Shown here: piece by piece, positions 54,347-62,130 of the stretch
Layout: each line of letters starts with the position of its first letter
Numbering within the stretch: position 1 is the first letter of the stretch
Assembly: GCA_014874185.1 (NCBI GenBank)
Contig: JACWAF010000041.1
Span: 1-64,000, forward strand
Length of the DNA stretch: 64,000 bases
Reading direction: 5' to 3'
From: Nitrospirota bacterium
GTDB lineage: Bacteria > Nitrospirota > Thermodesulfovibrionia > Thermodesulfovibrionales > JdFR-88
Program-made: the position numbers and the translations under genes
The notes under the pieces: model-generated
Told to the model about the DNA's origin: nothing
Seen by the model: the letters and a program-made list of their open reading frames with translations, nothing else
Database searches by the model: none

Positions 54347-55435
54347 CTACCGGATGAAATTGAGCCCGGACTCTGTTGCGAAGCGGACCGCCTCCTCAAA
54401 CTCAGCCGGTGCAAGCCTTCGGTTGATATCCGGATAAAGATGGGCCCTCCAGCACGGATAATACTGGTCCATGAGATTGACAAGGCATCTGTCCCTGATG
54501 TTTTCCGCAACCCATTTCAGCACGGGTTTTGTGCAGCACTCTACATGGCCGGGCAAGACCAGATGCCTTACCGTCAACTCGGCCTGGCCTGCGGCGATTA
54601 AATGATTTCTTGAACACACTCCAAAATATCCCTTTACCTTTGAAAGCCTCAGGGCACAGTCGTCGTTTCCATATTTGAAATCCGAAAGGTACATATCGGC
54701 AACCCCATTCAGGATATTCATCGTCTTTTCAGCCATGTACATGTTTGAATTCCAGACAACCGCAACATTCTCATTGCAATGCTTCAAGGACTCAATAATC
54801 CAGAAAAGCTGGGGAGTGGGCTCACCTCCCACGAAGTTGACATTTCTTGCACCCTCTTTCTTCCTGCCTTCGATGATCCTCGCCAGGGATTTCCCATCTA
54901 TCTCTGTTCCCTCCTCATACCATTGTGAGATCTCCCAGTTTTGACAGAACTGACATTTGAACGAGCAGCCCATGAAAAAGATGGTATGGCTTGGCGTGAT
55001 ATAGGGTTCTTCTCCCATATGCATGAATTCCGATGAAATCAAGCAGCGGTCCCCCACGCGGCAGACCCCAAGTTCACCGGCCCATCTATTTACCCCGCAT
55101 CTCCTCTCGCATAACTGGCAGGATTCCATAATTCTTCTGACCAGCAGCAACTTCAAATCCAGAAGCGATCTTTCCTGTATTTTCAGGTCCTCCGGTTTTA
55201 TCTGTCCGGAATCGATATTTCTTCTGGTTTCGTAAAAAGCTCTCATCAATTGCTCGTGCATGTCCCAGAGAACTTCAATGTCTGCTCCTTCATCGAATTC
55301 CGCTTTTATCCCCTTTGAGATCCGGAAGACCGCGGGCAATTGTCCTCTGGCCACTTTTCTGTACCTGGGAAAGATTTTCTTGATTATGGGCGCATCCAAT
55401 GCGTCGACCGCGTCCGGTCTTGCAAAATACCTCAT
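54347..55435 (-). CDS. Radical SAM protein, PflX/COG1313-like
   Basis: This 362-aa protein has the radical SAM site CSFKCQFC (about 160) and an N-terminal Cys-rich stretch CQLCERRCGVNR. GGEPTPQ and the downstream HLVLPGHVE match the pyruvate formate-lyase-activase-like family of unknown target. Extra cysteines suggest a second cluster. It lies 150 nt downstream of yedF, reading the same way, with no obvious operon coupling. Confidence 0.82.
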   Translation of the reverse strand: MRYFARPDAVDALDAPIIKKIFPRYRKVARGQLPAVFRISKGIKAEFDEGADIEVLWDMHEQLMRAFYETRRNIDSGQIKPEDLKIQERSLLDLKLLLVRRIMESCQLCERRCGVNRWAGELGVCRVGDRCLISSEFMHMGEEPYITPSHTIFFMGCSFKCQFCQNWEISQWYEEGTEIDGKSLARIIEGRKKEGARNVNFVGGEPTPQLFWIIESLKHCNENVAVVWNSNMYMAEKTMNILNGVADMYLSDFKYGNDDCALRLSKVKGYFGVCSRNHLIAAGQAELTVRHLVLPGHVECCTKPVLKWVAENIRDRCLVNLMDQYYPCWRAHLYPDINRRLAPAEFEEAVRFATESGLNFIR

Positions 55436-55585: not shown

Positions 55586-56191
55586 TTAGCCTATCCACAC
55601 GGTTTTTTCCCTCTCGGCCATTCCATCGATAACATTATTTGTGGTTCCCCTATAGCCCACCTTCAGACTCGATTCAAGCCCATAGTATTTAAGGCAGGTG
55701 CCGCACGAGAAGATCTCCACCCCCATCTGCTCGATTTCCTTCAGCACCGGGACCAACTCATCGTTTAGAGTCGTAAGCTTCACCCCTGAGTTAAGGAAAA
55801 AGATCGTGTGCGGAACTTCTTTTGTTACCTTCATGGTCTCAAAAAACCCCTTCATGAGCATCCGGCCAAGCTCTTCCTCTTTGCCAAGCTGGTCCGTGGC
55901 CACTACCATGAGGATGTCTTTTCTTGCATCCGTGACATCCTCCTTTTTCCCCTCAAGCTTCACCCCAGCGGTCTGGCAGGCGTATCCTTTTATTATTTTC
56001 ACCAGCCAGTCCTGGCCCTCTCTGGAAACTTCCGCGTAACAGCCGCTGTTTTTAGCGAACGTCACAAGGTTATCCGATGAGCCATAATTGTCCACCAGGA
56101 TCTCCACAACCCCTTCATGTATCTTAGCCAAAGCCTCCTGCGCCATGAGAACCGGCGTGGGGCAGCTCTGCCTCCTAGCATCGATAATCAT
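55586..56191 (-). CDS. yedF: Selenium-metabolism protein YedF (TusA + DsrE-like domain)
   Basis: This 201-aa protein has a TusA/SirA domain (about 1-70, CPxP motif SCPTPVLM with Cys10) followed by a DsrE-like domain (about 90-200, VATDQLGKEEELG, MGVEIFSCGTCL). This is the TIGR03527 YedF type, found almost only in genomes with selD and thought to act in selenium handling. The molecular role is unproven. A tRNA-Sec-like cysteine tRNA lies 28 nt upstream on the same strand. Confidence 0.88.
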   Translation of the reverse strand: MIIDARRQSCPTPVLMAQEALAKIHEGVVEILVDNYGSSDNLVTFAKNSGCYAEVSREGQDWLVKIIKGYACQTAGVKLEGKKEDVTDARKDILMVVATDQLGKEEELGRMLMKGFFETMKVTKEVPHTIFFLNSGVKLTTLNDELVPVLKEIEQMGVEIFSCGTCLKYYGLESSLKVGYRGTTNNVIDGMAEREKTVWIG

Positions 56192-56219: not shown

Positions 56220-56316
56220 TGGAGGGGGATAGTGGGAATCGAACCCACCGCGTCCCTTTTAGAGGCGCGTTTATGGTTTTGCAGACCATATGGGGCACAC
56301 CAGCCCCTTACCCCCC
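56220..56316 (-). tRNA. tRNA-Sec-like cysteine tRNA: GCA anticodon, long variable arm
   Basis: The 97-nt tRNA has an 8-bp acceptor stem GGGGGGTA/TATCCCCC (one G-U) and D-arm GGGGC-TGGTGT-GCCCC. The anticodon arm is ATGGT-CTGCAAA-ACCAT, with anticodon GCA. A long variable arm follows (CGCG/CGCG, one mismatch, four more pairs, loop AAA), and the T-arm is GTGGG-TTCGATT-CCCAC. Discriminator T and CCA are encoded. The 8+5-bp stack and long arm are those of bacterial tRNA-Sec. The GCA anticodon and U73 are cysteinyl-tRNA synthetase identity elements. From memory, tRNA-Sec mimics of this kind are reported in some deltaproteobacteria. It lies 28 nt before yedF and 7 nt after a gene stub. Confidence 0.88.
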
Positions 56317-56323
56317 TTTCCAT

Positions 56324-56413
56324 TCACCCTCCAAGGACGCCCAAAAGTCCGGCATGGTTTTCAAGGTTGAGCCCCAGGCCTTCCCACATCTTCGTGTAAT
56401 CCTTTCCGCTCAT
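56324..56413 (-). pseudogene. N-terminal stub of a double-cubane-cluster (YjiM/HgdB-like) protein
   Basis: A perfect ribosome site GGAGGGAAA and ATG lead into 29 codons starting MSGKDYTKMWEGLGLNLEN and ending at TGA. The sequence resembles, from memory, the conserved N-terminus of 2-hydroxyacyl-CoA-dehydratase-like proteins, which often lie near yedF. Nothing like the rest of that protein follows: the Sec-like tRNA starts 7 nt later. It may be a relic or a translated leader of the tRNA-yedF transcript. Confidence 0.5.
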
Positions 56414-56792: not shown

Positions 56793-56821
56793 AGTATATG
56801 AATAGATTTTAAATCTGTCAA
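56793..56821 (-). promoter_or_regulatory. Consensus sigma70 promoter, possibly for the yedF unit
   Basis: TTGACA (56821-56816) and TATACT (56798-56793) lie on the minus strand with an ideal 17-nt spacer. Transcription would start near 56786 and run toward the short ORF, the stub, the Sec-like tRNA and yedF. No terminator was seen in between. Confidence 0.7.
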
Positions 56822-61401: not shown

Positions 61402-62130
61402 ATGGAGCCGTTCTTCATAAAAGCCAAGACCATATCGGACGCATGGTTTCAGCTCATCTATAACGTATTCGACAACGCTTACACACAGCGGATACAAAGG
61501 GGCTCTTTCGAGAACGAGCAGTACCGGCTCCAGTATCCGGGGATGGCAGTCTACATAGAGCACCCCTCCGAGGACATGGTCCCGGTGATGCCCCCGAACT
61601 CCGGCATTCCGGCCCCAACCACGATGGAATATATCGAAGACTATTTCGCCAATTACCTGATGGACCCGGAACTCTCCGAGAACGAGACTTACAAATACGC
61701 CTCACGCATACATTACCCCATGCCGAAGGGCGGCACCCAGCTTGACAGGGTTATAGAAATGCTCCGAGAGACCCCGCTTACCAATCAGGCCGTTGTGGAG
61801 ATAGGCACCCCTGAGGACAACGATATCTGCCTTGGCAATGACGGCAAGATGGACCCGCCATGCCTCAGGCTGCTGGACTTCAAGGCGGTCCCCTTAAAAG
61901 ATGAGACTGTCCTCACTGTAAGCTGTTATTTCCGTTCCTGGGACCTGTGGGCCGGGTTTCCTACAAACCTGGGCGGCATAGAGCTGCTCAAAAAGTATGT
62001 GGCGGACGAGGCCGGGCTCTCAAGCGGCCCCATTTACGCCTACAGCGCCGGGGCGCACATCTACGGGTATCAGGAAGACATAGCGAGGCTCCGCACCGGC
62101 ATACAGAAACTCAAAGCCAACCGGGGCTAG
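61402..62130 (+). CDS. Thymidylate-synthase-like protein, archaeal type
   Basis: This 242-aa protein has the ThyA nucleophile region as DPPCLRLLDF (Cys154 in PPC). The folate and dUMP region is present as YFRSWDLWAGFPTNLGGIELL and AYSAGAHIYGYQ, matching the archaeal thymidylate synthase family. It may make dTMP from dUMP using methylene-tetrahydrofolate, or act on dCMP. The sequence is shorter than E. coli ThyA (264 aa). GGAGG precedes the ATG. It converges on the next gene, and the two share one palindromic CTAG stop (62127-62130). Confidence 0.75.
   Translation: MEPFFIKAKTISDAWFQLIYNVFDNAYTQRIQRGSFENEQYRLQYPGMAVYIEHPSEDMVPVMPPNSGIPAPTTMEYIEDYFANYLMDPELSENETYKYASRIHYPMPKGGTQLDRVIEMLRETPLTNQAVVEIGTPEDNDICLGNDGKMDPPCLRLLDFKAVPLKDETVLTVSCYFRSWDLWAGFPTNLGGIELLKKYVADEAGLSSGPIYAYSAGAHIYGYQEDIARLRTGIQKLKANRG

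Follow-up and report, generated by a model that had tools for sequence, protein, structure and literature searches.

A tRNA with a selenocysteine-type body and cysteine identity in Thermodesulfovibrionales and its selenium-gene neighborhood

tRNAs that combine a Sec-type body with the identity elements of cysteinyl-tRNA synthetase (CysRS) are known as tRNA-ReC ("recoding with Cys"), and their hosts also have tRNA-Sec. They reportedly carry mostly the anticodon GCA, and their delivery by SelB at UGA is said to have been proposed. The clostridial tRNA-ReC, the tested member, is reportedly charged by CysRS and bound by SelB and, from a transplanted gene, is said to have recoded UGA as Cys in E. 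coli. The class also goes by the name selC* tRNA-Cys, and the 2017 abstract on selC* reportedly also names Cys tRNAs with an 8/5 branch. The 13-bp branch of acceptor and T-stems is the feature by which SelB, and not EF-Tu, takes tRNA-Sec. According to a review (PMC7609411), the selC* tRNA-Cys of Mukai et al. (2017) has a Sec-like structure, U73, and GCA; its hosts include Nitrospirae, and a second selB lies downstream in some lineages (PMC7609411), with selB* described for Syntrophobacterales and Desulfobacterales (PMC7609411). In the review, selC* is drawn as an 8/4 body with a 4-bp T-stem and a bulged A51a, and the selC* of Desulfobacterales has UCA and A1:U72 and is accompanied by cysS*, a second CysRS without an anticodon-binding domain (PMC7609411).

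The tRNA gene described here lies at 56220 to 56316 on the minus strand of a 64,000-nt stretch of Nitrospirota DNA (the window) and fits the selC* tRNA-Cys/tRNA-ReC class: it has a Sec-type body, GCA, U73, and an encoded CCA. The report to which the earlier note on this sequence alluded is real (selC* tRNA-Cys, PMC7609411); the host here, however, is a member of the Nitrospirota and not a deltaproteobacterium, nor is it a clostridium like the host of the tested tRNA-ReC. Compared to selC* as drawn in the review, the window tRNA has a clean 8/5 branch, GCA, and G1:C72 as the first pair, and neither selB* nor cysS* lies beside it. It shares the 8/5 branch, the 6-bp anticodon stem, and the long variable arm with tRNA-Sec (RF01852), but tRNA-Sec has UCA and G73 and is a substrate of SerRS and SelA. 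Ordinary tRNA-Cys, in contrast, has a 7/5 branch and a short variable loop, and allo-tRNAs have an 8/4 or 9/3 branch and Ser identity. Both the class and its occurrence in the phylum Nitrospirota are already known; what we add, relative to the class as the review describes it, is the selenium-operon context and an operator-like motif in relatives.

Structure, identity, and genomic setting of the window tRNA

ARAGORN predicted a tRNA-Cys (gca) at exactly 56220 to 56316 (minus strand), whereas the Rfam model that matched the same gene over its full length (56316 to 56224; 52.3 bits; gathering threshold, 47; E, 2.5e-8) was that of tRNA-Sec, RF01852, and the gene is thus named differently by the two tools. 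The minimum-energy fold, at −46.2 kcal/mol more stable than any of 200 shuffled sequences (z = −4.4), is a Sec-type cloverleaf with an 8-bp acceptor stem, a 5-bp T-stem of perfect pairs, a 6-bp anticodon stem, and a variable arm of 7 bp with one bulge. The D-arm consists of a 5-bp stem and a 6-nt loop, UGGUGU, compared to 6 bp and 4 nt in the usual tRNA-Sec. The anticodon GCA is found at 56282 to 56280, U73 at 56223, and CCA at 56222 to 56220. In an alignment of 21 distinct relatives, the cloverleaf pairing was kept in 95.4% of the cells and fell to about 54% when the partners were slid by one base; changes on both sides were seen at 17 of the 25 pairs, versus 8.7 for shuffles, none of 500 reaching 17. 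The acceptor stem contributed both-sided changes at six of its eight pairs, the eighth pair among them, and helix 4, the T-stem, was 100% paired. The window element is a real, conserved tRNA. The main determinants of CysRS are U73 and GCA (PMC7609411), so charging with cysteine is expected, and the window tRNA, judged by its sequence, should carry cysteine. The Rfam match, the fold, and the covariation bear out the tRNA-Sec body that the earlier note had read from the letters, with its acceptor stem of 8 bp, T-stem of 5 bp, and long variable arm, and ARAGORN and the base positions bear out its Cys-type GCA and U73.

The T-arm (56232 to 56248, minus strand; GTGGGTTCGATTCCCAC) matches that of the tRNA-Sec encoded in this genome at 17 of 17 positions. 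This match is weakly discriminating, the tRNA-Leu(caa) of the same genome being only one base different, and was rejected as too weak a proof of descent or SelB binding. The core of the anticodon arm (56274 to 56286, minus strand; GGTCTGCAAAACC) has the same sequence as in the ordinary tRNA-Cys of the genome (G000:C25, L243 3635-3706).

The window genome (G000; 2.43 Mb in 42 contigs) encodes a true tRNA-Sec(UCA) on contig 14, an ordinary tRNA-Cys(GCA) on contig 25, a single SelB (G000:C20:87538-89385; 360 bits), and a full-length CysRS that shares its reading frame with an N-terminal part resembling, by eye, serine acetyltransferase. With all four present, the window tRNA is an extra tRNA. Both companions for which the earlier note had proposed to look are present, and the case that it had named as speaking against its reading, that this is the only tRNA-Cys of the organism, is excluded by the gene on contig 25.

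Besides CysRS, nine of the 61 Thermodesulfovibrionales genomes encode a short CysRS-like second protein of ~405 amino acids (G000, G023, G032, G034, G041, G050, G051, G052, and G059). It is without an anticodon-binding domain, scores below the cysS and MshC cutoffs, and, by eye, seems to have lost a Zn-ligand cysteine (WHIEC to WNIQD). In the window genome, its gene (C12:15318-16535, within L244 6325-8169, minus strand) is unlinked to the tRNA, and its co-occurrence with the tRNA across genomes (both, 7; tRNA only, 26; protein only, 2; neither, 26) is not significant (p = 0.16). A role for this paralog as a dedicated charging enzyme (CysRS*) is not supported, given the lack of linkage, the nonsignificant co-occurrence, and the apparent absence of the Zn-ligand cysteine.

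Closer inspection of the locus revealed yedF directly behind the tRNA (55586 to 56191, minus strand), encoding a selenium metabolism protein with TusA and DsrE domains (TIGR03527, 195 bits, cutoff 110; PF01206 and PF02635); Lin et al. (2015; PMC5322559) connect yedF with selenium metabolism. Its start codon lies 28 nt downstream of the tRNA CCA, with a GAGGAGG-type ribosome site in between. Upstream of the tRNA is a relic of 29 codons (56324 to 56413, minus strand), in which the first 27 codons of a double-cubane-cluster reductase gene are fused in frame to the apparent last codons of an activase gene. Its N terminus equals that of the reductase of a relative (L175 in G007) that has intact reductase and activase genes directly upstream of the tRNA, and the relic reflects an internal deletion of ~2 kb relative to such relatives. 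An interpretation of the 29-amino-acid reading frame as a regulatory leader or peptide scaffold was discarded, its sequence being the N terminus of the relatives' reductase. A candidate sigma-70 promoter, TTGACA-N17-TATACT (56793 to 56821, minus strand; 11 of 12 consensus positions; three promoter-like sites in the stretch versus 1.7 expected), lies ~480 nt upstream of the tRNA and perhaps drives a relic-tRNA-yedF transcript. This transcript possibly extends to the gene downstream of yedF (54347 to 55435, minus strand) for a radical SAM protein that is PflA/AmmeMemoRadiSam-like and scores below every curated cutoff; by eye, a radical SAM gene likewise follows the tRNA and a yedF remnant at another locus (L079). 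Elsewhere in the window, 61402 to 62130 encodes a protein resembling thymidylate synthases; it comes closest to the methanogen-type family TIGR03283 but scores below the cutoff of that family.

Distribution of the tRNA and its selenium-gene neighborhood

A BLAST census, supplemented with the tRNA-Sec model and checked at the sequence level, found the tRNA in 33 of the 61 Thermodesulfovibrionales genomes; such mimics, which the earlier note had called rare, are therefore not rare in this group. GCA and U73 were present in all 30 loci of the order that were inspected first, and CCA, at least six of eight acceptor pairs, and a 5-bp T-stem were present in all of them except one decayed copy. That copy (G008) is degenerate, with 6/8 acceptor pairs and no CCA, and the yedF that follows it is a broken remnant; tRNA and yedF have decayed together in this genome. 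The same 8/5 tRNA with U73 and GCA was also found in Actinomycetota (L073, L111, and L128) and Chloroflexota (L101, L116, and L130). Pattern searches for anticodon loops returned mostly noise.

Some relatives (L188, L189, L192, L195, L199, and L202) have variable regions of ~45 to 55 nt, which is unusually long for a bacterial tRNA. One genome (G039) carries two copies of the tRNA, of which L241 (G039:C91:1709-1802) sits between a double-cubane reductase gene and its activase gene. Chryseobacterium and relatives (L077, L087, L123, L137, L138, and L141) have a tRNA with a 7-bp acceptor stem, the anticodon GCA, an 11-nt variable region, and no encoded CCA. Another tRNA, found in Burkholderiales (Rubrivivax, Piscinibacter, and others), resembles the window tRNA in its Sec body and GCA (L072, L083, and others) but differs in having G73, a SerRS identity base, and in lying behind selB, in most cases by 7 to 31 nt (L072, L083, L084, L086, L092, L096, L106, L108, L113, L114, L117, L120, L133, L136, L140, L148, L163, L164, and L173). 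G73 and the position directly behind selB suggest that this is probably a tRNA-Sec that reads Cys codons.

In the family of the window organism, the gene order is double-cubane reductase (NF040772), activase (TIGR00241), the tRNA 9 to 10 nt later, and yedF (after 27 nt in G007), the assignments resting on profile matches of the relatives' proteins. In other families, the tRNA follows the gene of a LysR-type regulator, LysR_Se (NF040786; 296 bits, cutoff 250), and is itself followed by genes for a YeeE/TsuA-like transporter, a split-Soret cytochrome, and a transglutaminase and by yedF. The order tRNA-yedF recurs in Chloroflexota, with spacings of 24 nt (L101) and 52 nt (L116). A selenium-cluster gene lies at most 5 kb away in 46 of 68 distinct loci, although many flanks are incomplete, whereas a random locus is expected within 5 kb of a single-copy gene ~0.4% of the time. 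By gene, the counts among the 68 loci were 32 for yedF, 19 for LysR_Se, and 6 for SelB, as obtained with profiles that were built from these same neighborhoods and whose representatives were validated by NCBIfam. At the remaining 22 loci, no selenium-cluster gene was found in the available flank, and the loci of Thermodesulfovibrio have no selenium neighbors, only the promoter motif described below. Across the 61 genomes, tRNA and yedF co-occur (both, 27; tRNA only, 6; yedF only, 9; neither, 19) with a Fisher p of 1.9e-4, a value that ignores kinship.

A linked SelB paralog and an operator-like motif in relatives

Five loci (G050, G059, L078, L081, and L172) carry a gene for a full SelB immediately after the tRNA. 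In G050 and G059 it is the second SelB of the genome, and it forms a strongly supported group with the tRNA-linked SelBs of the other loci (support, 100/98), to the exclusion of the house SelB that either genome also encodes. This divergent paralog of one lineage matches the described selB* and supports delivery of the tRNA by SelB. No second SelB was found in the window genome, and none lies beside the window tRNA.

Just upstream of the tRNA, sister families have a LysR-type dyad, ATAGA-N5-TCTAT-TTG, of the T-N11-A form of LysR sites. It continues into TTGAC, usually 51 to 52 nt before the first base of the tRNA, and overlaps the −35 element. With at most one mismatch and within 300 nt, the dyad was found at 30 of 66 loci, versus 2.3% in shuffles and 1 of 30 tRNA-Sec genes. 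The exact pattern ATAGANNNNNTCTATTTG occurs nine times in the 61 whole genomes, and eight of the nine copies immediately precede this tRNA in the same orientation. LysR_Se is often encoded next to the tRNA and has at least one copy in nearly every genome. LysR_Se is the candidate protein that would bind the dyad, and a LysR_Se-type operator probably sets the supply of the tRNA in sister families. The operator motif was also sought at the window locus and not found, and the exact motif is not found anywhere in the window genome; the operator link therefore does not hold for the window's own locus, whose sole promoter candidate is the sigma-70 site ~480 nt ahead of the tRNA.

Cysteine in place of selenocysteine and the competing explanations

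Taken together, our data favor, as a somewhat better than even choice, a selC* tRNA-Cys/tRNA-ReC that works with SelB to put Cys at SECIS-UGA codons and is itself controlled by selenium. Ordinary CysRS would charge the tRNA with cysteine via GCA and U73, and the 13-bp acceptor-T branch would direct it to SelB instead of EF-Tu. SelB would then place Cys at UGA codons with a SECIS element, by which selenoproteins would be finished as Cys versions. Cotranscription with selenium-handling genes, here ahead of yedF, would let the supply of the tRNA follow the selenium status. The functional evidence sits in the surroundings, which the earlier note had overlooked, namely, yedF, LysR_Se, the double-cubane reductase, and, in relatives, the linked SelB paralog, and the placement in selenium operons suggests that Cys is put in the place of Sec when selenium is scarce; the selenium-scarcity physiology is our reading of this neighborhood, and charging by CysRS, transfer by SelB, recoding of UGA, and the direction of the regulation are inferred as well. 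In archaea, the LysR_Se protein HrsM acts as a repressor of Cys-containing isoenzymes in the presence of selenium (PMC5322559). Cys insertion by the tRNA would be the translational counterpart of this isoenzyme control, with Cys filling UGA positions when Se is short.

Several points speak against UGA recoding. GCA would read UGA only through an unusual G34-A pair, as is known for plant tRNA-Cys, and decoding of UGC and UGU would be easier. The insertion in the D-loop of the window copy could indicate relaxed constraint, no operator motif lies near the window tRNA, and its genome has no second SelB. Furthermore, 22 of the 68 loci are without a selenium-cluster gene, and in one relative (G041; 80 contigs, 99% complete) the tRNA and tRNA-Sec are present, but SelB was not found at E below 1e-30, which may be an assembly gap or a loss. 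A conversion of the Cys-tRNA to Sec-tRNA by SelA is not favored: the SelA-type D-arm has a sixth D-stem pair with a 4-nt loop (PMC11431864), and in 13 of the 21 members of the class these two bases do not pair.

The easier match of GCA to UGC and UGU leads to the first competing explanation, in which the Cys-tRNA would serve these sense codons and leave UGA untouched, either through SelB at SECIS-marked Cys codons or through EF-Tu as a spare tRNA-Cys. GCA was indeed present in all loci collected, although the collecting patterns, other than BLAST, required it; Sec insertion at Cys codons by anticodon variants of tRNA-Sec is known (PMC8124441), and GCA tRNAs with G73 lie directly behind selB in Burkholderiales. 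However, an ordinary tRNA-Cys is already present, and a spare one needs no Sec body, selenium neighborhood, or dedicated SelB paralog, and we regard sense decoding as unlikely. Judged about as poorly, and slightly lower, is a nontranslational role, in which the Sec body would keep the Cys-tRNA off EF-Tu for use as a substrate by an enzyme encoded in the selenium/sulfur cluster. The tight linkage to yedF, double-cubane reductase, and activase rather than to selenoprotein genes would agree with such a carrier, as would the presence of a linked SelB in only some genomes, but no enzyme that uses aminoacyl-tRNA was recognized in the clusters, and direct evidence of this kind of reaction was not found.

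It is imaginable, with considerably lower probability, that the element acts in cis as a tRNA-like leader of the yedF, yeeE, or selB* mRNA that binds SelB or CysRS and tunes the downstream gene, since it lies 3 to 80 nt before the start codon of yedF or of a transporter gene in many loci. Such a leader is at odds with the conservation of CCA, U73, and GCA, with several loci at which no protein gene of the same strand follows directly, and with the dyad and −35 element, which set the transcription start near base 1 of the tRNA, as for a tRNA gene. Least credible is that the copy is decaying and no longer functions in this organism: the genes for reductase and activase upstream of it are deleted, the D-loop carries an insertion, and the score is below that of many relatives, but all acceptor, anticodon, and T pairs, CCA, and the identity bases are intact, tRNA and yedF have outlasted the adjoining deletion, and the truly decayed G008 copy looks different (6/8 acceptor pairs, no CCA).

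Cys insertion at SECIS-UGA codons may be taken one step further to a selenium code switch, in which LysR_Se, acting on the dyad, would turn the Cys tRNA on when Se runs out and SECIS-UGA codons would all be read as Cys; we put this forward tentatively and as a distinctly less secure proposal. In the family of the window organism, the tRNA would have moved into the double-cubane reductase/yedF operon and would be controlled from there.

In sum, the idea that Cys takes the place of Sec under selenium control becomes directly testable through the conservation across the order, the operons shared with yedF in two phyla, the private SelB paralog of one lineage, and the private operator-like motif of others, and a candidate regulator, its binding site, and culturable hosts (Thermodesulfovibrio) are now named. 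If the code switch is true, a single regulator would make the reading of a codon depend on a trace element.
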